From positions 1-30,446 of the IMG/VR virus record IMGVR_UViG_3300035659_001266: a DNA stretch of 30,446 bases, one strand, 5' to 3'. The notes under the pieces were generated by a model. It worked only from the letters and a program-made list of their open reading frames with translations. It searched no databases and had not been told where the DNA came from. The translations under genes were made by a program, and so were the position numbers. How positions within the stretch are numbered: the first letter of the stretch is position 1; every line of letters begins with the position of its first letter. Shown one piece after another: positions 10,205 through 26,459 of the stretch. Source of the stretch: a virus.

Positions 10205-10906
10205 ATGGCTACCGCGCTGTCCTCGCTCATCACCATCGCACGGTACAACCTCAACGAGCCCGTCGCCTCATTTTGGAGCGATGCCGAACTCCTCGCATGG
10301 ATGAACCTTGGCATCAAAGCCCTCTGGCGGGCACTCAACGACAACTATCAGGATTTCTTTCTGACCAACGACGCCAGCAACGTCTCGATGGCCGCCGCCA
10401 CCACCACCTTGACCGGCGTACCCGCGAACGTTGCAACCATTCGTGGCATCGAACCGCGCGTGCCCTCGAATTACCCCGGCATCCGGTTCGAATCGCGAAA
10501 CTACATGCACCCGCTGTTTCAGTCGGCCCGGTCATCGTCGCCCATCGACCCGGCCCAAAGCGCCTTGATCTACTTCTGGATGACTGGCGCCGGCGCACCC
10601 GTCGCAGCGCCCACCATCTACGTCGCCCCCACCCTCTCGTCCACCATGCTGCTTCGGCTCGTGTACGTCCCCACGCTTGCCCTCGTCGCATCGTCAGGCA
10701 ACAATCCGATTCCCTTCGAGTCCGACGCCGCGCTCGTCGCGTGGACGACCGCCTATGCGCTCGCCAAGCGAAAAGAAAGCCAGACGCCAGACGCGGAATG
10801 GATCTCGATCTTCGCGACGGAAAAGGCCAATATCCTCACCGCAGCCACACCACGCCAAACCCAAGACGACGAAGTCGCCGAAGGCTTATTCGAGGGAATG
10901 ATGTGA
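10205..10906 (+). CDS. Head-tail adaptor, P22 gp4-like
   Basis: A 233-residue protein whose N-terminus, L-x-x-L-I-T-I-A-R-Y-N-L-N-E-P, then F-W-S-D-A-E-L-L-A-W-M-N-L-G-I-K-A-L, matches the pattern of phage adaptors (P22 gp4, HK97 gp6-type) that bind below the portal: a helix, an acidic turn and a helix. A beta region (residues ~60-160) and a C-terminal helical segment with A-L-A-K-R-K-E follow. It stands between head genes and tail-hub genes, as expected. It would close the filled head and give the tail its docking surface. Confidence 0.75.
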   Translation: MATALSSLITIARYNLNEPVASFWSDAELLAWMNLGIKALWRALNDNYQDFFLTNDASNVSMAAATTTLTGVPANVATIRGIEPRVPSNYPGIRFESRNYMHPLFQSARSSSPIDPAQSALIYFWMTGAGAPVAAPTIYVAPTLSSTMLLRLVYVPTLALVASSGNNPIPFESDAALVAWTTAYALAKRKESQTPDAEWISIFATEKANILTAATPRQTQDDEVAEGLFEGMM

Positions 10907-10909
10907 CCG

Positions 10910-11359
10910 ATGGGCAAGAAACTCAACATCTACAATCTTGCCGACATCGGCGTCGACGTGACCGCATCTCCCCTCCACCGCAAACCGGGCACGCTCACCA
11001 AGGCCCAGAACGCCGTCATGCTGCCCAACGAGGCGGAAGGCGCGATTGAAAAACGCGGTGGACTGCAAGCCATCGGCGACGACCTCACGCAACACATCTG
11101 GGGCGGCGCGAATATCCCGCTCAACCCGGCCACCGTTCAGCGGCTCTGGGTCGCCCTTGAAGACACGTCTGTAGAAAAGACATGGATCCACTCGATTGAC
11201 GGAACAACGTGGCTCGTCGCGACGATTCCGGCTGCCGCCTTCCAAGCGCAACGCCGCAAGCCGTCGTACCACCACCTGTTTCAACCCCCGGCCACGGTCG
11301 CCATTGTCAATCGGATGATCTATCCCTCGGACGCCTACGCCATCTATGAGGACGCCTAA
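10910..11359 (+). CDS. Tail-hub/nozzle N-terminal fragment (149 aa)
   Basis: The N-terminus has the pattern of phage tail nozzle or stabilisation proteins (P22 gp10-type role): a short lead-in, then K-A-Q-N-A-V-M-L-P and an E-K-R-G-G-L motif near residue 50. This motif normally opens a long propeller protein, yet here the ORF stops after 149 residues at Y-P-S-D-A-Y-A-I-Y-E-D-A. The stop shares bases with the next ATG (TAATG), so ribosomes may pass straight on. I infer that the 149, 669 and 532-residue ORFs are parts of a tail-hub system usually carried on fewer, longer polypeptides. No good ribosome site precedes it; translation is likely coupled to the adaptor gene three bases upstream. Confidence 0.7.
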   Translation: MGKKLNIYNLADIGVDVTASPLHRKPGTLTKAQNAVMLPNEAEGAIEKRGGLQAIGDDLTQHIWGGANIPLNPATVQRLWVALEDTSVEKTWIHSIDGTTWLVATIPAAAFQAQRRKPSYHHLFQPPATVAIVNRMIYPSDAYAIYEDA

Positions 11360-13368
11360 TGCCAGCAACCATTGACGCCTTTGCTGGCACCATCGGAGTC
11401 TCTGGCGCCACAGGCGACGGCGGACTCGCCACGGCCGCCACGCTCGCCGGAGTTGGGGCGCTCGCACTCGCTTCGAACGGCGACGTATATTTCTCCGATG
11501 ACGCCAACAACGCCGTCCGGAACATCGCCGCGGCCACCGCGTTCATATCGCTCTACGGAGGAATCTACGGCAACGCCGGCGCACCCGTGGAAGGCGTCAT
11601 TCCGACAGCATCTCCAATCGCGAAGCCAGTTGGCATCGCGATCAACGCGGCCGGAGACATCTACATCGGCGACCGCGGCAATGCGTGCGTTCGAAAAGTC
11701 TCTATCGCAACAGGATTCATTGACACCATCGCGGGCATCCCCGGAGACTCCGGGACGAGCGGCGACGGCGGCGCCGCAACCGCAGCCAAACTGTTTAATG
11801 TCCAAGGGCTAGCCCTCGATTCGGCGGGCAATCTCTATATCGCCGATTCAAACCGCATTCGCAAAGTCACGGTCGGAACCGGACTCATCTCGACCGTCGC
11901 CGGACATCTGCTGCCCGAAACAACCCTCGGAGACGGCGGCCTCGCCACAACCGCCACGATCTTCAGATACAACTACGCGGTAGCACTCGATGCCTCCGAC
12001 AATCTGTATATCGGGGGATGGTCCGATGGTGTCGGCGTCTGCGAATTTCGCATTCGCAAAGTCGACGCGGGAACGGGCAACATTTCAACCATCGCTGGCA
12101 CGGGCGTAGAAGGATACGACGGCGACGGCGGACTCGCCACGGCCGCGAAAATTGGCGTGCCCATCGCGATCACCATCGACACCGACGGAAACGTCTATTT
12201 CTCCGACACGGACTTCGCTCCGTATATCCGCCGCATCGACGCGGATACAGGCATCATCACGACCGTCGCTGGTATCGGCACATGGGGAGCCACCGGAGAC
12301 GGCGGCGACCCACTCGCCGCAGAAATCAGCACCGTCAATGCGCTCGTCGTGTCTCCAGACGGCGACACCCTCTATCTTGGAGATTCCGACAACTACCTGA
12401 TTCGCGTCATCACCGGACTCCTGCCCGTTCCCCCATCACCCGGCGCTATCGGCGGTCCCCCGCTCCGCCTCTTTGACGGCGTCAACGACTATCCGTTCTG
12501 CACGATTCCATACAATCAACAAATTCAAATTGCCGCCGGATCGACGCCGACCTACGCCTCGACCGTCGGACAAATTGTGAAGTTCCAAGGAACGTTCTAC
12601 GCCATTTCGCTCGACGACTCCGCCACGGTACGAGGAACGGTCTGGCGCATCAACCCACGTTCGGGACAACTGAGTCGCCTTGGCAACGGCTTCGCCAAGA
12701 CCGGATCGGCCATAGGAACGGAAAGCAATCACGGCGCCCCGTGGCGTCTGGCGGCATGGAACGGCCGTCTCTGGGTAGTCACCAATCAACTCGAATCGGC
12801 GACATGCGCCGTCCTCAGTATCCGACCAGACTCAGACACGACATGGGACGAAGACAAGGAAATCGCGACCAGTTTCGGGACCGGGCTCGTCGCTGCCTTC
12901 GGCAATCTCTACGTCACGTTCATGTACGCCGCGGCTGCCACACCGAAAGCGATCTGGGAACGCAACGCGCTCGGGACGTGGACAGCGCGCGCGACGATGG
13001 TGTCCGCTGGCTACGCGGGGTTTTTCAAACCATTCGTCTTCGACAGCAAACTCTTTGCCTTCAAACAGGATGAAGTCTCGGGGTCCGTCACGTCGATCAT
13101 CGCGACACTCGACGGCACAACATGGACCGAAGACCTCTCAGATGGCGACCTCAACACGCTAGTCGGACAAGAACTCAACGACGCGAAGGTCGGAGGCATC
13201 ATGACGTTCAAGGGCAACCTGTACGTCATCATCATCGGCGAAGAACCCGGGGCGGCGGGCAAGATTCTCAAACGAATCCCCGGCGCGATTGGCGGCACAT
13301 GGACGCTGCAACACACCGCCACGGAAGGCTTGACAGGCTACGGCGCCGTGTTGACGACGCTGGAATAA
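11359..13368 (+). CDS. NHL-repeat propeller protein fused to a second tail-hub domain (669 aa)
   Basis: Residues ~7-354 form six NHL-type repeats, each with a G-D-G-G-L-A-T-A-A-like entry, an A-x-D-x-x-G-N-x-Y-x-x-D core and an I-R-K-V...T-G-x-I-S-T-V-A-G exit. This is the layout of a six-bladed beta-propeller; repeats 1, 2 and 6 are the most diverged. After a Pro-rich linker, residues ~370-669 are a different region with alternating strands and W, G and D turns (P-L-R-L-F-D-G-V-N-D-Y-P; G-R-L-W-V-V-T-N), like the body of phage hub proteins. NHL propellers usually bind proteins or glycans, so a receptor or docking role is plausible. It starts in TAATG overlap with the 149-residue ORF. Codon choice matches the phage neighbours. 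Confidence 0.8.
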   Translation: MPATIDAFAGTIGVSGATGDGGLATAATLAGVGALALASNGDVYFSDDANNAVRNIAAATAFISLYGGIYGNAGAPVEGVIPTASPIAKPVGIAINAAGDIYIGDRGNACVRKVSIATGFIDTIAGIPGDSGTSGDGGAATAAKLFNVQGLALDSAGNLYIADSNRIRKVTVGTGLISTVAGHLLPETTLGDGGLATTATIFRYNYAVALDASDNLYIGGWSDGVGVCEFRIRKVDAGTGNISTIAGTGVEGYDGDGGLATAAKIGVPIAITIDTDGNVYFSDTDFAPYIRRIDADTGIITTVAGIGTWGATGDGGDPLAAEISTVNALVVSPDGDTLYLGDSDNYLIRVITGLLPVPPSPGAIGGPPLRLFDGVNDYPFCTIPYNQQIQIAAGSTPTYASTVGQIVKFQGTFYAISLDDSATVRGTVWRINPRSGQLSRLGNGFAKTGSAIGTESNHGAPWRLAAWNGRLWVVTNQLESATCAVLSIRPDSDTTWDEDKEIATSFGTGLVAAFGNLYVTFMYAAAATPKAIWERNALGTWTARATMVSAGYAGFFKPFVFDSKLFAFKQDEVSGSVTSIIATLDGTTWTEDLSDGDLNTLVGQELNDAKVGGIMTFKGNLYVIIIGEEPGAAGKILKRIPGAIGGTWTLQHTATEGLTGYGAVLTTLE

Positions 13369-13371
13369 CAC

Positions 13372-14970
13372 ATGGCCGACTATCTCGTTCAGAGCGGAAC
13401 CAAACTGTACAAGGTCACTCCGGGCGGAGTCGCAACCGAACTGACGCTTCCCTCTGGCGTCACGTTGCGCGCAGAACGGTCGCGCTTCGCCCAACTCGCG
13501 AAAAACACCGTGATGGTCGGTTCACCCACCCGCTCACTCTGGATCAACGAAGACTTCACCGTTCGCACCCAGACCCTTCGTCCTCCAGCCTACGCGCCCA
13601 TTCTCAGCGCGACCGGCAGCGGTTCTCTCAGCGGCAGTTTCCGAGTCCGGGTGTCCTTCTACGTCGCCGACGCAGACGACAACATCATTCTCGAATCCCC
13701 ACTCGGCCCGCCCTCCGAAGCCTCCGCCACCCTTGCGTCACAACTCCTAAAGTGTCAGGCCATCCCCCTCAGCGGAGACAGCCTCACAGGATTAGGCCGG
13801 CGCCTCTACCGCACCACCACAGGCCCGGGTTCGGTGTACTACCCGTGGCTCGACCTCGGGAACAACACCGCCACTGACGCGGCCGACGACCTGTCCGATG
13901 CCGCGCTCATTCTCTTGCCCGCCGTCACGACATTGGTCAACCCTCCGGGCACCACGCCGGGAGACTCCGCGCGATTGATTACGGTCTGGAAAAATCGGCT
14001 GTTCCTCTGCGGCGAGGAAGACATTGACGTAGTTCATTTCAGCGAAGACGGGAGCTTCTACCAATTCCTCGACGGCAACGACTTCCCGGTCAAACCGCTG
14101 AATCAGAACGCGCGCGGCCTTGTCGCGTTTGCCGCCCGACGCGATGAACTCGGATTGTTCAAAACCAACGTCGCATGGAAACTCGTCGGATCGTCGCCCG
14201 CCAACTGGGATCAACTGAAGATCGCGGAACAGATTGGCTGTGTCTCGCAAGACAGCGTCGTCATCATCAAGGATGTCGCCTACTGGCTCGGGCGAGACGG
14301 CGTCTATTCGTGGGGACCAGAAGGACTCGCCCCGATCACACGAGAACGTGTCCACCCGTGGTTTACCACGAACGATGTCTTTAACCGGGAAGCATTCGAA
14401 AACAGTTTCGCCGCGTACAACCCGGTCCTCGACACCTATGAACTATTCCTTCCCGCGACAGGCGGAACGGCGATCAACCGTTGGGTGTCCTATTCGCTCG
14501 CCCGCAAAACATGGATGGGACCACACAAGACCGGCGGATTCACGCCGTCGTTTGCCTTCAACGTCGATGATGCCACCGACCAACAGATTCCACTCGTCTG
14601 CGGCACCAACGGCACTCTCTATGCGATGAATAGCGAACTGGCCCGAGACGGCGCGAACACGTCCATCGACTTCGACGTGGACCTCGCACATCTGCACATC
14701 GACGTTCCCGACGACATCAAACACTTTGGCGAAATGGGCGCGCGCGCACGGGTAGAATCCGGTGGCGTCCTCACCATCACTCCCTCGGTTGGCGAACTGG
14801 ACGCTCCGGCTGGAGCCCCGATTGCGTTTGCGCTCACGGAAGGCCGCCTCCGCGCTCGAATCCTCGGGAATGGCCGTTTCGCGCGCCTCAACATCAACCA
14901 GAACACGGTCAACGTCGCCGTTCGTCTCTACGGTTGCGAAGTGCCCTACCACGTCATCGGGAGAGACTGA
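13372..14970 (+). CDS. Tail hub/nozzle-type propeller protein (532 aa)
   Basis: It opens with Y-L-V-Q-S-G-T-K-L-Y-K-V, a propeller blade pattern, then has an Ig/fibronectin-like insert at roughly residues 65-130 and further blades: W-K-N-R-L-F-L-C-G, V-A-Y-W-L-G-R-D-G-V-Y-S-W-G and W-V-S-Y-S-L-A-R-K-T-W. This layout is common in podovirus hub or nozzle proteins that cap the tail. The C-terminal 100 residues are beta-rich with a final domain suited to fibre attachment. The ATG follows the previous stop by three bases. The sequence reads like the C-terminal continuation of the 149-residue ORF's protein, supporting a split gene. Confidence 0.8.
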   Translation: MADYLVQSGTKLYKVTPGGVATELTLPSGVTLRAERSRFAQLAKNTVMVGSPTRSLWINEDFTVRTQTLRPPAYAPILSATGSGSLSGSFRVRVSFYVADADDNIILESPLGPPSEASATLASQLLKCQAIPLSGDSLTGLGRRLYRTTTGPGSVYYPWLDLGNNTATDAADDLSDAALILLPAVTTLVNPPGTTPGDSARLITVWKNRLFLCGEEDIDVVHFSEDGSFYQFLDGNDFPVKPLNQNARGLVAFAARRDELGLFKTNVAWKLVGSSPANWDQLKIAEQIGCVSQDSVVIIKDVAYWLGRDGVYSWGPEGLAPITRERVHPWFTTNDVFNREAFENSFAAYNPVLDTYELFLPATGGTAINRWVSYSLARKTWMGPHKTGGFTPSFAFNVDDATDQQIPLVCGTNGTLYAMNSELARDGANTSIDFDVDLAHLHIDVPDDIKHFGEMGARARVESGGVLTITPSVGELDAPAGAPIAFALTEGRLRARILGNGRFARLNINQNTVNVAVRLYGCEVPYHVIGRD

Positions 14971-14971
14971 C

Positions 14972-17011
14972 GTGGCTCCGCCGAAACGCTCTCGGTCGAA
15001 ACTCTACGACATCCAGTGGCCGATTGTCGCGCAGCAGATCGAAAACATCAATGCCAACTTCGACCGGCTCTTTGCGGACCTCTACGCGGCAGACACAGCG
15101 GCGCTCTTTGCTGACAACATCCTCGCGGCTGAATGGGGCGGAACCGGCCTTGGCACGTACACGATTGGCGATCTGCTGTACGCCGACGGCGAACACACTC
15201 TCGCCGCACTTCCAGCGGGCACAGCCGGATACCATCTGGCGTCAGGCGGCGCCGCCACCGCTCCATCGTGGGTCACGAATCTCCACAATCTACTCTCCGC
15301 CACCCACCCCGACACGACGGCCGCCGCCGTAGTACGCGGCGACCTCATCGCGGGCATCGGCGTGAGTCCGAAGTGGGAACGGCTGGCCAAAGGCTCAGCG
15401 ACCCACATTCTCACAATGGGCGCCAATGAGCCATCGTGGGCAGCCCCCGTATCCCAGACCTCCGCCTTGCTCTCAGCCACCCACACTGACACGACGGCCG
15501 CCGCCGTGGTACGCGGCGACCTCATCGCGGGCATCGGCGTGAGTCCGAAGTGGGAACGGCTGGCCAAAGGCACCAGCGGCTATGCCTTGATCATGGGCGC
15601 GGACGACCCCGCGTGGACCGCAATCCCGTACCCAATCACCGGCAGCGGCACCCTCAACGTCGTCACGAAGTTCACCGCCGCCGGCGCCATCGGCGATACC
15701 CCGTGGACCGACGTAGGCGGCATTCTCCGCGGCCTCACCGACCCAACCGCCCCAACCGACGCGGCCACCAAGGAGTATGTCGACCTCGCCGTCCGTTCGC
15801 TGGAAATCACCGAATTCTATACCGCCGCCGTCGTCTCGCCGAACCTGTACACGATGGACAACGCCGCGACCGCCGCCGGAACCGTCACGTCTCTCTCGAC
15901 GGTTGGCGCAGCCGATGTCTTGATGTTTTCGTTCATCACACCAGTCGGGCATCCCAATCTCGACCGTATGCTCCAAGGGATGTACGACTCGCACTTCCAC
16001 ATGAAAATCGCGACAGCGGGTTCCACCATTGTCGCCTACTTCAAACTGCGCCACTGTGACGCCGCGGGCGCGACACTCGCCACGCTCGGTACCCAATCTG
16101 ACAATTCAGACCCGCTGACCTCCGACAACCTCGAATACAACGTCCACCTGTATCTCGCGGCTGAAGTCACCTTCGCGCTGACCGACCGTATACGCATCGA
16201 CTTCTACGGCACCCACACGGCCGGAGCCGCGAAAAGCGTCATCATGGCCATCGGAGGCGTCGACAACTCGCACTTCTCTCTGCGCGTTGACGCGACCGAA
16301 CTCGCTGCGATCTTCGTGCCCTACTCAGGCGCCGTACACGACCTCACGATGGGCACCAAGGTCATTACGGCAGCAGGGTTCAACGGGTTGGTACTGACGG
16401 AGACGGCGGGAGGCTTTACCATCGAAGGCGGCACGGGCAGCCAGACCTTGACGGTGACAACGACCGGCACCCTCGGCACCGCGGCCTACACGCCAGTCGG
16501 AGACTACTCACCCGTTGCCGGATCCAGCAGCATCGTCACCGTCGGCACCATCACGAGCGGGATCTGGAATGCGGGCGCGCTCACCAGCAGCGGCGCGATC
16601 AAAGAACGCGCACGCGCAACGGCCCTCGGCGAATGGATCACTCCAGCATTCTCGGCCGGAAACTTCACGGCGATCAACGCGATGACGTGGACCGTCGGGG
16701 CGGGCGATGTCATCACCTACGCGTACACACTCATCGGTAAAACGATGGTTGTGGTCTTTGCCATCCACACCAGCAGCATCGGCGGCACGCCAGACGCCTA
16801 CATCTATATCGCCATCCCCGGCGGATTCACCGCGGCGAAACAGGCCAACTCGTTCGCCCGCATCTGGGAGAATGGCGCGGATTCGTCCGGTATCGTCTAC
16901 GTCCTTCCCGGCGGGAGCGTCATCAACATCATCATACAGGGCGGCGGCAACTTCGCGGCCTCGACGGATACGACCTACGTGCAAGGCGAAATCGTCTTCG
17001 AAATCTCCTAA
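14972..17011 (+). CDS. Tail fibre with tandem repeats (679 aa), GTG start
   Basis: I place the start at the GTG at 14972, two bases after the hub stop, with GGGAGAG upstream; the frame stays open farther upstream but overlaps the hub gene with shadow-like sequence. The N-terminus has a helix with I-E-N-I-N-A-N-F-D-R-L-F, typical of fibre or baseplate anchors. Fibre-type modules follow: W-G-G-T-G-L-G-T-Y-T-I-G-D-L-L-Y-A, then two copies of a 59-residue unit with D-T-T-A-A-A-V-V-R-G-D-L-I and S-P-K-W-E-R-L-A-K-G. The C-terminal 250 residues are Gly/Thr-rich strands ending in a compact domain that is probably the receptor-binding tip. Roles are inferred from these modules and from position after the hub. 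Confidence 0.85.
   Translation: MAPPKRSRSKLYDIQWPIVAQQIENINANFDRLFADLYAADTAALFADNILAAEWGGTGLGTYTIGDLLYADGEHTLAALPAGTAGYHLASGGAATAPSWVTNLHNLLSATHPDTTAAAVVRGDLIAGIGVSPKWERLAKGSATHILTMGANEPSWAAPVSQTSALLSATHTDTTAAAVVRGDLIAGIGVSPKWERLAKGTSGYALIMGADDPAWTAIPYPITGSGTLNVVTKFTAAGAIGDTPWTDVGGILRGLTDPTAPTDAATKEYVDLAVRSLEITEFYTAAVVSPNLYTMDNAATAAGTVTSLSTVGAADVLMFSFITPVGHPNLDRMLQGMYDSHFHMKIATAGSTIVAYFKLRHCDAAGATLATLGTQSDNSDPLTSDNLEYNVHLYLAAEVTFALTDRIRIDFYGTHTAGAAKSVIMAIGGVDNSHFSLRVDATELAAIFVPYSGAVHDLTMGTKVITAAGFNGLVLTETAGGFTIEGGTGSQTLTVTTTGTLGTAAYTPVGDYSPVAGSSSIVTVGTITSGIWNAGALTSSGAIKERARATALGEWITPAFSAGNFTAINAMTWTVGAGDVITYAYTLIGKTMVVVFAIHTSSIGGTPDAYIYIAIPGGFTAAKQANSFARIWENGADSSGIVYVLPGGSVINIIIQGGGNFAASTDTTYVQGEIVFEIS
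15294..15571 (+). repeat. Two tandem 177-bp units within the fibre gene
   Basis: The 84-base segments 15311-15394 and 15488-15571 differ by one base (GTAGTACGC versus GTGGTACGC). The match extends leftward with more mismatches, to about 15294 and 15471. The spacing is 177 bases, exactly 59 codons, so copy number can change without breaking the frame. Confidence 0.9.
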
Positions 17012-20001: not shown

Positions 20002-23000
20002 ATGCCGACGACGCGCGCGCCCTACACGCCGTTTCAACCCGGCACACTCCACCGGACCCTTGCCGAGTGGGACCAAACCCACGCGCCCGAAGCCACGCCG
20101 GGAATCAAGCCGCCGAGAAATCGTCTCTCGGGCAGACTTCGCCGCCAGCCAGACGGCTCCATCCTCAAGACGGACCTCGACGCGGCTATCGCCGACGACC
20201 CGTACATCAACGACAACGACGTTGCTGATTGGCTGAAAGAACAAGACGAGGTTGACGCGGCCGAAGAAAAGGCGCGGGGATTCGACTACGTCGGCACCGG
20301 CATTCGCGTCGTCCCCGGCATCGCAGGAAGCGTCATCGGCGGACTCATCGGCGGCGGCGCGGGCGCGGCTGGAGGGTCGGTCGTTCCGGTCGCCGGGACC
20401 GCCGCTGGCGCCGCCGGCGGCGCACTTCTCGGCTCACGAGTCGGCGGCGGTCTGGGTTCTGCAACCGGCGAAGCCCTCGCCCAACTCTGGGAGAAAGCGA
20501 GCGGGAGACGCAAAGGCCCGATGTCATGGGGCTCGGTTGGCGTACAGGGCGGCCTTGGCATGGCGATCCCCGGTGGAGGACTTGGCGCGAAACTCGCCTC
20601 ACCCGCCATGCGTGCGCTCGCTCGAACCGCCGGGGAAGGCGTCCTCGGCTCGGCACTTGGCGCGACCGGCACCGTGGCAACCGGAGTCACCGAACGACAC
20701 GCCGCGGAACCAGACAAAGGATGGGTCGCCGCGCTCCCCACGGCAGAACAAGCCCTCCAAGAAATCAAAATGGGCGGCGCCGTCGGCGGCGCTTTGGGTC
20801 TGGTTGGAGGCGGCGCCGGCAACTACTACCAGTACCGAAAAGGGCTTCCGGCTCCGGGCCGCGCTATCACCGGCCGACGGCCACCCCCCGGATACGTTCC
20901 CGATGAACGCTTCGCTCCGACACCGCAGACCGAACTCAAGCCGTGGGAAATCGCCGACAAAGCAGACCCGTGGTATGGCGGCCTCAAGGAATCACTGACC
21001 GAACCACCGCCCCCGCCACCCCCCGGAGCCGAACCACCTTCACGTCGCATCATCGTCCGGGACGAGACAACCGGCGAACTCGTCGGTCGGGATGTCGTAT
21101 CGGAACCCGCCCCAGTACTCACCCCAGACGAACTCGCAGCGACAGAAGCAGAAGCCGCGCGAGAAGCAGCCCGGGTTGCCGCCGGAACGAGTCAGGAACG
21201 GTCCGCCTTCGCGGAACTCGAAGCGATCCTTGGTCGGAACCCGAACGCCGACATTCGCGCCACCTACGATGCGGCCGGCCGCCTCATCCCAACGGTGAGA
21301 CGCCCTCCAATTCAGCGACGTGCCCCGGTCACGCCCGAACCGGCAGCCGTCGCCCCCGTCGCGCCCGAACCCGTCGCGGCTGTCCCACCCCCGCCGCCGG
21401 TAGAATCTCCCTACTCCGTGGGAGAAACCGTTTCCGTCAAACGCGGCGCGTACCGCGAACCCGGGACCGTAACCGCCATCATGCCAAACGGCGAAGTCAT
21501 CGTTCAAGTCGGCAAAGAAGCCGGCCCGAACTCTCGCCCCATTCGTCGTCAATACGCCGCAGAAGACGTGCAACCCATCGACCTTGCCACCGAAACGGCG
21601 CCAGTCGTCGCCGAGCCCCCGGCCGAACCAATCCAGACCGATACGCCCATCATGGGCAAGAAAAGCCGCGGACAACTCGGCACGCTGGAGCGGGTATTGG
21701 TGAGCAGTCTGACGCCAGCCGAACGCAACGAAATTGGCCGAATCGCGGCAGAACTCGAAGAAGTCGTCTACACGCCCCGCCGAGGCGTCGAACAATTCGG
21801 CGAGCCCGGCATGGAACAACTCCCCGGCTCCGGCGGCGCCCCGGTCCTTGGCGACATCTCGAACGTGTTTGACACCCGCGGCGCACTCGGAAAACTCAAG
21901 CCGAGTACCAACGCGCGAACACTCATCAACTCGATTCGTAGGGCCATTGAAACCGGCCAACACCCCGGGGATATCTGGTGGGAACGCATCGTCGACGTAG
22001 CCCGCAAACGTCTCGCGGGAGATACAGAAGTCAGTAAGCCGTTCTTACCCCCAGAAGCAGGAGAACTCTGGAATGCCGCTCACACGCAGTCAACTGCTCT
22101 CGGAAATGAAAACCTTGATGCAGTCGGGAACGCCAGTCGGCCAAGCCCTGAAGGAATCGCTGGCGAAATTCGGCCTCGACCGGATGCCACCGAGATTGAC
22201 TACGGGCGGCACGCAACCGCCGCTCGATCCACTGGATTCGCCGGAACAGACGCCCAACTTCAAAGCGCCTTCGACGAGAAGCTGACCCAAGCCCGCCAGT
22301 TACAGGAAGACATCCTCGCCGAAACCGGCGGAACGCTCGACCTACCGGCAGCCCTCGACGGTGTCGGCGTCTACGACGGCGCCCGATGGTGGGAACCCGC
22401 TACCGGAGCCGCGGATTTCGCGCCGCCACCAGAAGACCTCAATTCCTTGCTGGCAGGACCGCCAGAAGGCGGGAACCTCTTTGGACGACCTCTGGCACCC
22501 CCGACACCAATCGAGCCTCCAGCGGTCACACAACCGCCGTCTACCCTCGAACAGATGTTCACGCCACCGGAGCCGATTGTTCCACGGGAAACACCGGCCC
22601 CGGGCCCGGATAACTTGGCTACACTCCTCGAACCTTCGCCAACTGCCGGGATTCCGGCAGAAACCGTCCCCGTCGGAGTCCGTCCTGTAGCGCCAGCGAA
22701 ACAAGCCCAAGGCGGCTCATTCCTCGCGCCAGCGGACAAGGATTACATCTTCGTCGAATTGACCCGGGACCAAGCTACCCCGGAGACACGCGCCGCCCTG
22801 AAAGCGGCAGGATACGTCTTCAGGCGGAAACAGGGACCGGAGGGCCGATGGTTCAAGAACACCATCGACAGGGACGGAAACGTCTTGATGACGCCGGCAG
22901 ACGCCGAAGCGGAAGCTGCCGCCATTCTCGGACGGGCTGAACCCGCCGCCGAAGCGCCACCGCCCCAAACCCTTGAAACCACGTTGACACCGGAACCAGC

Positions 23001-25701
23001 CGCCACCGCCGCCGACATGCCTCCGGCGCCATCGTCCCCCGAAACCGCCGCCGCCCAGACGGACATCGAAGCCCTGCTGCAAGGTGAACTGACACCCAAT
23101 CTCCAGCGGCGCACCGTCGAACAGAACATCCGAGCCGGAGAACGCAAAGCCCGAACGCTCGCACAAGCCCGCGAAATGGGAGTCACGCCAGAAGCAGCCG
23201 TGACCGGCGGCCAACCACGCCGAGAAACCCCGCTCCCGCGCCCACGGACGACCCCGGACCTTCCCGAGCCCGGACTGACACCGCAAGACGCCCCGCGCCC
23301 GTCACGCCGGGAACCGGATGCGTTTGCCCAATCGACGCCGGAACGGAAACTCGGTTGGGCGATGAACCATCTCGACCAGTACATCGGCGCCGAAGTGCGC
23401 ACGCTCCGTAACCTTGGCGACCCGGGCGCACAACTGCCACTCCACGAAACATGGAAGGGCATCAAAACGAGCCGGCCAATCAACGCGACCCTCATCGACG
23501 CGCTCGACACACTCAAAGCCGCCGCCGATGCGGGCGACCCGCAATCGCAGTACTACCTCAGCGCATGGGAACAGACCGCGAACGAACGATTCACCGCCAA
23601 GTCCCTGAAGAAGGGCACGCGGGGAGACGTGGCAACCGAAGGCGATATGTTCGAAACCTCGGAGCCGATTGAAAATCGCCAGACGCCCGGAGGAGTGACC
23701 CTCTACGGCGGAGTCGCCGGAGTCGACAAGGCCGTCGACGCAGCGATGGATACCGCCTTCGGCCGCGACCCCAATCTGGCCAAGAATCTCGCGAATCGTC
23801 TGACCCGAGCCGTCTTCGGCTACGTCGCCGGAATGCAAATGGACAAAGGCGACAAGGACGACTCTCACAAGTGGAGACTCGCGCTCTCCGCTGGAGGATT
23901 CTTAAGCAAAGACATCGGCCGCATCCTGAGTCGCGCCGCAGCCTCGGCTTCGAAAACCGCCCGCACCCAAGTCGCCAAGCAAATCGAACTGCGGGAACCC
24001 CGGCCCGTTGTGCAGCCCAAACTACCGCCGAAAGACGTGGCACCGACACCAGACGGGCTGGCGCAGATTTTCTACCCGAAAGAAGAACTCAACTTCTTCC
24101 AGTGGCTCCGCGGATCAACAGCCGAAAATCTCCCTGAATGGGCGAACGAAATCAGCGCAGCCGAACACAACTTCAATGCGGCGCGTTCACGCCCCACCTT
24201 CAAGGGTACGCCACAAGAAATCGCTGCGCTCCGAAAGCAATACCTCGAACCCGTCGCGAAACGCATGGCGAAGACCGCGATCGACATCAAAGGCACGTCG
24301 AAAAGGAAAGCCTCGGTCATGTTTGCCGTCGTCAACGCGCTTCGAGACAGACCTGAAGGTCTGAGCAAGTGGCTGGACGAAGCCGGATTCAAGTACAACC
24401 TCCAGAAGAAAATATCGCGCACCACTTCTGCGCTCACCTATCGCACCCTCATCGGGTACAACCCGGGGACGATGGTGCAGAACGCAACGCAGCCGTTGCT
24501 CGCGCTGTCCTACGTGCCGATGAAGTTCATTCACAATGGAATGGTCACGGCAAAAACAGCCGCCGGGAAGATGCGCTCGATGTCCGTTCATCTGGACCGA
24601 CCAGTGGACCTCATCGACGAAGCGACCTACAAGGGCGCACGGATCAACAATCCGAAGCTGGAGAAAGCGATAGCCTACTGGAAGAAACTCCCCGTCCCTG
24701 ACGCGATGGCCATGCTTCGATGGGGCGACAACTGGAATCGACAAGGCGTCTTCCTCGGAGCGATGGACTACGCGCTATCCAAGGGCGCGGCCGAACAACG
24801 AGCAATGGAATGGGCCACGCAAGTCGTTTTCAAGACCCAAGGGGCAACCGGAATCCTCGGATCGAATCCGAACTGGCGCGGTCCCGTAATGGGCCTCATC
24901 GCGCCGTTCACAAAGTTCCCAACCTTGTTCGTCGAACAGATGGCCACACTCTTTTCCCGCCCCGGGAACGAAGCTGGCAAACTGCGAATTATGAGTACGC
25001 TCGGCGCACTCATGGTTGCCGGAGAAGTGGTCGGAATCGACACGGAAGACCTCCTCGTTTCGGGCGGCAGACCGTTCGGCCTCGACATCGGCAACCCCGG
25101 AAAGTCGATTGCGCGACTCAAGAGCGGCCAAGCCCTGCCCATCGTCAAGGGTATCGGAGAAGGACTCGCCGCGAGCTGGCAAGCCGTCTCGGGCGCCGGC
25201 GCCGGTCGTCTTGGCGAAGACCTCACCACGCTCGCCCTCACCAAGTCTGTCACCCGCGCGGGCCAGACGGCTCGCGAAATGCTGCCTCAAGCCGCCAAGG
25301 GCAACTTGCTCGGCACCCACGTCGGACACGATCCGATGGGCGCCGCCGTGCCACACACCGGGTACGAAGACCTCCTCAACCTTATCGGACTCCGCACGCA
25401 ACGCCAGAACGAAACCCGGCAAGCCTACGATGCGTTCCAAGGGGAAAACGCGCCGAAGCAAGCATTACATGCGCGTCAACTGCAAGAAACCAAGGCCGCC
25501 GCACTCAAGGCGCTCGACCAGAACGACCTCGAAGGCATGGCGACAGAAATGGCAAAGCTGAATAGCAAACAGCGCCGCTCGCTACTGTCAGGCCGCAACC
25601 GCACTCGGTTCCAGCGCATCGTGCAAGGGATGTCGAAAGCCGATAGACTGCAAGTCGAAAAAGACTGGAGCGAGAAATTCAAGAGTCTCGAATTACGATG
25701 A
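20002..25701 (+). CDS. Giant ejection/internal virion protein (1,899 aa)
   Basis: The largest gene in the window. Regions in order: charged N-terminus (1-93); Gly/Ala zipper-like hydrophobic stretch (~98-160, V-I-G-G-L-I-G-G-G-A-G-A-A-G-G) and a second one near 255-275, both able to insert in membranes; Pro-rich region (~320-465); KOW/SH3-like domain (~469-520, Y-S-V-G-E-T-V-S-V-K-R-G, then G-T-V-T-A-I-M-P-N-G-E-V); mixed linker (690-760) where another frame looks more natural; Pro-rich linkers (~780-1110); and a conserved-looking helical C-terminal half (~1110-1899) with G-Y-N-P-G-T-M-V-Q-N and I-A-P-F-T-K-F-P-T-L-F-V-E-Q-M. Such giants are packed in the capsid and ejected with DNA to span the envelope. 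No lytic transglycosylase motif is visible. The ATG follows the previous stop by six bases. Confidence 0.8.
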   Translation: MPTTRAPYTPFQPGTLHRTLAEWDQTHAPEATPGIKPPRNRLSGRLRRQPDGSILKTDLDAAIADDPYINDNDVADWLKEQDEVDAAEEKARGFDYVGTGIRVVPGIAGSVIGGLIGGGAGAAGGSVVPVAGTAAGAAGGALLGSRVGGGLGSATGEALAQLWEKASGRRKGPMSWGSVGVQGGLGMAIPGGGLGAKLASPAMRALARTAGEGVLGSALGATGTVATGVTERHAAEPDKGWVAALPTAEQALQEIKMGGAVGGALGLVGGGAGNYYQYRKGLPAPGRAITGRRPPPGYVPDERFAPTPQTELKPWEIADKADPWYGGLKESLTEPPPPPPPGAEPPSRRIIVRDETTGELVGRDVVSEPAPVLTPDELAATEAEAAREAARVAAGTSQERSAFAELEAILGRNPNADIRATYDAAGRLIPTVRRPPIQRRAPVTPEPAAVAPVAPEPVAAVPPPPPVESPYSVGETVSVKRGAYREPGTVTAIMPNGEVIVQVGKEAGPNSRPIRRQYAAEDVQPIDLATETAPVVAEPPAEPIQTDTPIMGKKSRGQLGTLERVLVSSLTPAERNEIGRIAAELEEVVYTPRRGVEQFGEPGMEQLPGSGGAPVLGDISNVFDTRGALGKLKPSTNARTLINSIRRAIETGQHPGDIWWERIVDVARKRLAGDTEVSKPFLPPEAGELWNAAHTQSTALGNENLDAVGNASRPSPEGIAGEIRPRPDATEIDYGRHATAARSTGFAGTDAQLQSAFDEKLTQARQLQEDILAETGGTLDLPAALDGVGVYDGARWWEPATGAADFAPPPEDLNSLLAGPPEGGNLFGRPLAPPTPIEPPAVTQPPSTLEQMFTPPEPIVPRETPAPGPDNLATLLEPSPTAGIPAETVPVGVRPVAPAKQAQGGSFLAPADKDYIFVELTRDQATPETRAALKAAGYVFRRKQGPEGRWFKNTIDRDGNVLMTPADAEAEAAAILGRAEPAAEAPPPQTLETTLTPEPAATAADMPPAPSSPETAAAQTDIEALLQGELTPNLQRRTVEQNIRAGERKARTLAQAREMGVTPEAAVTGGQPRRETPLPRPRTTPDLPEPGLTPQDAPRPSRREPDAFAQSTPERKLGWAMNHLDQYIGAEVRTLRNLGDPGAQLPLHETWKGIKTSRPINATLIDALDTLKAAADAGDPQSQYYLSAWEQTANERFTAKSLKKGTRGDVATEGDMFETSEPIENRQTPGGVTLYGGVAGVDKAVDAAMDTAFGRDPNLAKNLANRLTRAVFGYVAGMQMDKGDKDDSHKWRLALSAGGFLSKDIGRILSRAAASASKTARTQVAKQIELREPRPVVQPKLPPKDVAPTPDGLAQIFYPKEELNFFQWLRGSTAENLPEWANEISAAEHNFNAARSRPTFKGTPQEIAALRKQYLEPVAKRMAKTAIDIKGTSKRKASVMFAVVNALRDRPEGLSKWLDEAGFKYNLQKKISRTTSALTYRTLIGYNPGTMVQNATQPLLALSYVPMKFIHNGMVTAKTAAGKMRSMSVHLDRPVDLIDEATYKGARINNPKLEKAIAYWKKLPVPDAMAMLRWGDNWNRQGVFLGAMDYALSKGAAEQRAMEWATQVVFKTQGATGILGSNPNWRGPVMGLIAPFTKFPTLFVEQMATLFSRPGNEAGKLRIMSTLGALMVAGEVVGIDTEDLLVSGGRPFGLDIGNPGKSIARLKSGQALPIVKGIGEGLAASWQAVSGAGAGRLGEDLTTLALTKSVTRAGQTAREMLPQAAKGNLLGTHVGHDPMGAAVPHTGYEDLLNLIGLRTQRQNETRQAYDAFQGENAPKQALHARQLQETKAAALKALDQNDLEGMATEMAKLNSKQRRSLLSGRNRTRFQRIVQGMSKADRLQVEKDWSEKFKSLELR
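22073..22285 (+). CDS. Possible nested gene in another frame inside the giant ORF (70 aa)
   Basis: In the second frame this stretch encodes M-P-L-T-R-S-Q-L-L-S-E-M-K-T-L, then Q-A-L-K-E-S-L-A-K-F-G-L-D-R-M-P, an ordinary protein composition with G or C at most third positions. The giant's own frame over the same bases has A/T-rich third positions and unusual composition. CAGGAGAA lies about nine bases before the ATG. Either it is a real overlapping gene, or the giant ORF arose by reading through a former small gene between two larger ones. A pair of compensating frameshifts, in evolution or assembly, is also possible. Confidence 0.45.
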   Translation: MPLTRSQLLSEMKTLMQSGTPVGQALKESLAKFGLDRMPPRLTTGGTQPPLDPLDSPEQTPNFKAPSTRS

Positions 25702-25991: not shown

Positions 25992-26459
25992 ATGTCTAGT
26001 CCGCTCTGGCCACTCAGTTTCAAGGCGTCAGAACACTTCAAGGTGTCTGACTTCAACTGCAACGACACCGCCGGAACGCCCTACCCACCAGACAAAATCA
26101 TGACGGTTCTCTTGCCGTTCTGCCTCACCATCCTCGAAGTGATCCGCACCTACGTCGCATCCGACCGCCCGATCATCGTGCTGTCCGGCTACCGCACCCC
26201 CGAATGGAACGAACACGAAGGCGGCGCCCCCGACTCGCGCCACATTCACGGTGACGCCGCGGACATCTGGTGCCCCTCGCTTGGACTCACCGCAGGGCCA
26301 GAACTCTATCTCGCAGTCCTCAGTCTGCACCGAGCAGGATTCCTTCCACGCCTCGGCGGACTCGGCAGATATTCGAATCGAATCCACGTCGACACCCGAC
26401 CCCATTCAGCGGGAACGCTCAGTACGTGGGACAATGTCGCCATCGGTACACGCGGATAG
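25992..26459 (+). CDS. M15-family peptidase, probable endolysin
   Basis: A 155-residue peptidase of the D-Ala-D-Ala carboxypeptidase-like M15 group, which cleaves peptide crosslinks of the cell wall. The signature S-x-H-x-x-G-x-A-x-D is complete: S82, H84, G87, A89, D91, with H84 and D91 as zinc ligands and H132 in R-I-H-V-D as the third. S-G-Y-R-T precedes it, as in the family. There is no signal peptide or transmembrane segment, so a holin would be needed for access. Neighbours on both sides are membrane-type proteins. The weak ribosome site and six-base spacing suggest translational coupling. Confidence 0.9.
   Translation: MSSPLWPLSFKASEHFKVSDFNCNDTAGTPYPPDKIMTVLLPFCLTILEVIRTYVASDRPIIVLSGYRTPEWNEHEGGAPDSRHIHGDAADIWCPSLGLTAGPELYLAVLSLHRAGFLPRLGGLGRYSNRIHVDTRPHSAGTLSTWDNVAIGTRG

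Follow-up and report, generated by a model that had tools for sequence, protein, structure and literature searches.

An NHL-repeat propeller inserted into a tail propeller gene that is divided between two reading frames in a viral contig

The nozzle protein gp12 of phage T7 is a seven-bladed propeller whose nozzle-tip domain is reached through a loop of blade 3 (PMC6702177), and the muzzle protein gp44 of crAss001 carries one additional domain between blades 2 and 3 (IG1) and another in blade 3 (IG2) (PMC10172136). The nozzle protein TTPB of a short-tailed Vibrio phage binds a host receptor (PMC7241545). Phage genes may also be split: nrdA of Aeh1 and 43A/43B of phage 25 each yield two chains that are functional together, and T4 nrdA and mobE overlap by one base in the sequence UAAUGA (PMC2988022).

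Here we describe a locus in a viral DNA of 30,446 nucleotides (IMG/VR record IMGVR_UViG_3300035659_001266, positions 1 to 30,446), the whole of which is called the window. Like T7 gp12, the protein at this locus is a tail protein encoded after an adaptor, with a predicted seven-bladed propeller and an extra domain in a blade loop. While gp12 is a single chain, the window propeller is divided between two genes and its insert is another propeller; no sequence similarity between the two proteins was detected. The likeness to crAss001 gp44 lies in domains placed in or between the blades of a tail-end propeller, but those of gp44 are Ig-like and belong to one chain without fission. As in nrdA and 43A/43B, one coding region has become two polypeptides, which would cooperate. 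The inserts in those genes are homing endonucleases or untranslated sequence, whereas the window has gained a folded domain that is continuous with the C-terminal piece. The features of the locus are as follows.

10205 to 10906, plus strand: head-to-tail adaptor-like protein of 233 aa, the anchor of the locus (phrog_399, E = 1.6e-07)
10910 to 11359, plus strand: 149-aa ORF, N-terminal fragment of a 460-aa tail propeller protein (by alignment to relatives L003 and L004)
11348 to 11361, plus strand: fission junction, with GAGG at 11348-11351, 7 nt, and a one-base TAA/ATG overlap at 11357-11361 (from the sequence)
11359 to 13368, plus strand: 669-aa ORF, NHL repeats and the C-terminal fragment of the tail propeller protein
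11359 to 12420, plus strand: inserted NHL segment, six-bladed propeller (Pfam NHL and TEN_NHL; structural model; absent in relatives)
12421 to 12456, plus strand: linker from the NHL propeller to the resumed tail propeller, within LLPVPPSPGAIGG (from the sequence; low pLDDT at residues 357-364)
12457 to 13368, plus strand: C-terminal fragment of the 460-aa protein, residues 367-669 of the 669-aa ORF, fused in frame behind NHL
13372 to 14970, plus strand: 532-aa nozzle/hub-like protein, a separate older gene (phrog_511, phrog_3287; separate ORF in relatives)

The interrupted gene and its intact relatives

An earlier, sequence-only reading of this DNA placed an EKRGGL motif in the 149-aa ORF, which ends at YPSDAYAIYEDA, and found the natural continuation, PPLRLFDGVNDYP, only behind six NHL repeats in the next ORF. 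All of these are present; in the 669-aa ORF, PPLRLFDGVNDYP occupies residues 367-379, immediately behind the repeats. TAATG at 11357-11361 and a three-base gap (13369-13371) separate the ORFs as described; they were said to keep three reading frames together, which is true of the 669- and 532-aa ORFs, in a common frame, and not of the 149-aa ORF, which is offset from the 669-aa ORF by -1.

Relatives, all of them IMG/VR contigs, were found by capsid and terminase scans, and a broader scan, using profiles of the adaptor and the hub, gave 68 non-redundant neighbourhoods. Capsid, terminase, and adaptor worked as anchors; single-protein scans of viral contigs with the 532- or 669-aa ORF were unsuccessful, and tblastn searches of a named-phage collection with the 532-, 669-, and 460-aa proteins and with family consensus sequences gave no match.

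The two closest relatives (L003 and L004/L050) possess one intact 460-aa ORF between the large tail gene and the adaptor-like gene, which is the upstream neighbour kept in relatives. The 149 residues and residues 367-669 of the 669-aa ORF together align with this protein end to end; in L003 and L004 only a few residues lie between the two aligned parts, and NHL is absent. The 149-aa ORF corresponds to the first ~148 residues of the 460-aa protein (identity of 59% to L003 and 48% to L004), and the C-terminal fragment is 50% (L003) and 55% (L004) identical over 303 codons. Since 669 codons are open and both flanks align with one uninterrupted protein, the arrangement of NHL and flanks is not a product of chance. 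When each fragment is compared with L003 and L004, dN is 0.32-0.48 and dS is 1.3-1.6, which indicates that both flanks have been under purifying selection since the window and these kin diverged; the values combine the periods preceding and following the split.

An intact single gene of about 400-480 aa is found in about 30 of the 68 neighbourhoods, and in a tree of 61 hub proteins the window groups with the intact-gene relatives L003 and L050 (support 100/100), as the sister of that pair. Because the two closest relatives have an intact ORF without NHL, the insertion in the window would be derived, which the alignments make highly likely. Were the NHL-bearing split form ancestral, the position of the window as sister to L003 and L050 would require one loss before the pair and further losses outside it; NHL is absent from the other surveyed neighbourhoods, including outgroups with intact genes, and such a history is very improbable. 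Insertion of NHL and splitting of a tail gene, as first read from the sequence, are thus upheld by an uninterrupted gene in the nearest kin.

The proposal that a hub gene was split three ways, with the 532-aa ORF as a third piece from the same event, is not supported. By its profile matches the 532-aa product is a nozzle-like protein (phrog_511, E = 7.1e-13; phrog_3287, E = 2.2e-08), and the profile of the ~532-aa family matched a virion-associated phage protein in the PDB (8jov_A, E = 1.9e-4), with nozzle gp16 (8zkk) reached at E = 0.08 only. In the relatives read, the ~530-aa gene stands as its own ORF immediately downstream of the propeller gene; a downstream copy of 480-640 aa is present in 61 relatives, and most copies begin just behind the upstream stop, their first residues resembling MxFxLxQAGT. 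As the 532-aa gene is separate, the interrupted gene is the 460-aa arm-plus-propeller gene and not a whole hub. In MW202795, a distant phage, the protein annotated as phage stabilization protein (phrog_3287) is a nozzle made as one chain. Its N-terminus shows a weak alignment to the arm of the 460-aa family, and arm and nozzle may have been separated long ago, before this clade. The hub ORF of another relative (L018, 16188-19241) has 1018 aa and matches the hub over its first ~436 residues; a long stretch and then an end resembling the conserved C-terminus follow, which suggests that the nozzle-like gene has itself received an insertion.

The fission junction

The fission sits at the insertion point, on the 5' edge of the insert. 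The GAGG that ends 7 nt before the ATG of the 669-aa ORF is formed by E-D codons that are absent in L003 and L004, and similar Shine-Dalgarno-like sites precede several other genes of the window. A search for words of at least 6 bases common to both junctions found none. A single missing base in the sequencing or assembly could also produce the frame change, in which case the insertion would be real and the true product one ~819-aa chain with NHL in a loop; a single contig covers the site, and two kin (L119 and L096) have insertions inside one ORF. However, the ATG that overlaps the stop has a GAGG at a suitable distance, the site contains no homopolymer, and similar stop/start overlaps occur in split relatives. 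Single-base deletions simulated in 31 intact kin genes, a rough null given that they were not at an insert edge, created an overlapping ATG in 8% of cases and an ATG with a Shine-Dalgarno-like site in 0.01%. We consider the fission very probably real and an indel improbable.

Two other origins of the arrangement were rejected. A slipped reading that fuses both chains was rejected because GAGGACGCCTAATG has no slippery heptamer of the X XXY YYZ type. Splitting of the gene by an intron or a mobile endonuclease was likewise discarded, as the insert contains neither and consists entirely of NHL coding sequence and a short linker.

The NHL insert and predicted structures

The insert comprises ~354 aa and the linker. 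As claimed from the sequence, the 669-aa ORF has six NHL repeats, of which five carry a GDGG motif; it scores 39.7 bits with Pfam NHL (PF01436; cut-off, 20) and 81.4 bits with TEN_NHL (PF25021; cut-off, 27.1). The GC content of the segment (0.614) equals that of its neighbours. Among the 68 non-redundant neighbourhoods NHL is present at the propeller locus of the window only, in a form known from a single contig; a six-frame search with PF25021 was positive in 1 of 10 neighbourhood records, the window's own, and a search of other viral contigs for the window junction sequence gave no match. The inserted propeller is bacterial-looking. The closest NHL relative seen is a bacterial protein (Sphingobacteriales L047; 48% over the common repeats), which shares the GDGG-type repeats of bacterial NHL-repeat proteins, although in the window these lie in a phage tail gene. 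A literature search for NHL domains in phage structural proteins found no paper with the terms tried. NHL proteins of ~710 aa are encoded in unrelated viral contigs (L173, 7467-9599; also L172 and L177-L179), where the tail propeller family is absent.

The 460-aa protein of L004 was modeled with a pLDDT of 79 and a pTM of 0.79, as a poorly ordered arm (residues 1-75; block pLDDT of 46-67) and a propeller (76-459) with seven blades by strand list; strand 449-459 and strands 77-110 together close the last of them. VIA-align gave Z values of about 20-24 to propellers; the fold matches listed for the model are generic propellers and do not include T7 gp12, which may nonetheless be alike in fold. 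The 460-aa family has a predicted propeller fold and is encoded beside the adaptor. It had no significant match to PHROG or PDB nozzle families, and the arm profile found no nozzle in the PDB.

In the L004 model the insertion point lies in a coil (residues 142-155) that is flanked by strands 136-141 and 156-160, which places NHL in a loop of the first blade. Because of this position, the 149-aa chain would carry four tail-propeller strands, assigned from the L004 model, behind the arm (about residues 1-75). In the model of the 669-aa chain (mean pLDDT of 86.5), a six-bladed NHL propeller comes first, then a flexible linker, and then the remainder of the tail propeller. The NHL propeller is predicted to be closed by its first strand (residues 4-9), which completes the last blade, and its ends meet, as an insertion into a loop needs. 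The tail propeller resumes at the strand following the insertion loop, and the strands of the 149-aa ORF are missing there.

We propose that an NHL-coding segment entered a blade loop of the 460-aa tail propeller gene, and that the gene came apart where the insert begins, giving two translation units that TAATG and a Shine-Dalgarno-like site couple. The sequences show the insertion, its absence in kin, the split, and the selection on both flanks; the rest is inferred. The 149-aa chain, with its arm and four strands, would pair with the NHL-bearing chain and complete the host propeller, from whose loop the NHL propeller may project as a host-surface contact or tail-tip module, as T7 gp12 and crassvirus gp44 suggest. 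We assign this explanation as a whole a probability of roughly 0.6.

As the gene is cut in two by NHL, the tail part is probably reassembled from two chains, and the models make assembly into one propeller a reasonable expectation. The 149-aa piece could instead be a relic or have a separate role, with the C-terminal propeller closing alone, for example in an incomplete or domain-swapped form: the missing strands might be replaced, and since split relatives break near residue 87, the strands of the first chain vary. Yet the 149-aa ORF retains the arm invariants G14, N34, and R49 as well as its 59% identity to L003, with a dN of 0.32 against a dS of 1.57, and we find this alternative unlikely. 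Pairing of the two chains would make a natural split-propeller pair, the assembly of which is directly testable.

NHL propellers have many protein-protein roles, so that the inserted one may serve as a structural spacer or as a contact between subunits instead of contacting the host. Against this, indirectly, it is borne on a loop, a single lineage gained it, and kin carry inserts of unrelated kinds, as would be expected of variable host-facing modules. We rate the spacer role as unlikely; for host contact, proposed by analogy, the odds are about even.

Independent split of the gene in a second clade

In the tree of 61 hub proteins, a separate, fully supported group of 14 members holds all 13 loci that are split after the arm; the 14th member (L124) was labelled intact by default, yet has a long ORF of the split type. 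In this clade the first ORFs are short and stop near residue 87, with the arm retained. The second ORFs, most of which open on a TAATG or TGATG overlap, with small gaps instead in L115, L168, and L166, run through several hundred residues of other sequence before the tail propeller begins at about family residue 120-135. TIG domains are present in the second ORFs of L095, L107, L160, and L166.

The tree indicates that this clade split the same gene independently, and since it did so with other inserts, the gene is a recurrent site of insertion and fission. The window provides a case in which a tail propeller was opened at a loop, received a second propeller, and became split into two genes, with uninterrupted sisters for comparison; taken with the second clade, it suggests how short-tailed phages in general might alter their tail tips. 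More tentatively, the propeller gene beside the nozzle may be a general cassette site in this phage group, where breaks at propeller loops recur and the resulting arm-bearing and module-bearing chains assemble. If so, phages could exchange tail-tip modules (NHL, TIG, and others) without refolding the tail.

Three relatives (L163, L015, and L010) have the arm module twice between the adaptor and hub genes, and in L104 an arm-only ORF is separated from the hub gene by a family 2 glycosyltransferase gene (11017-11949; PF00535, E = 2e-27). Further along the window, the ORF after the hub (14970-17011), possibly a tail fibre and lacking a PHROG match, contains a duplicated segment, SATHxDTTAAAVVRGDLIAGIGVSPKWERLAKG. 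A 1899-aa ORF (20002-25701) has a weak match to the unknown PHROG phrog_34863 and none in Pfam, and an M15-type peptidase endolysin is encoded at 25992-26459 (phrog_894, E = 7e-24; PF08291).
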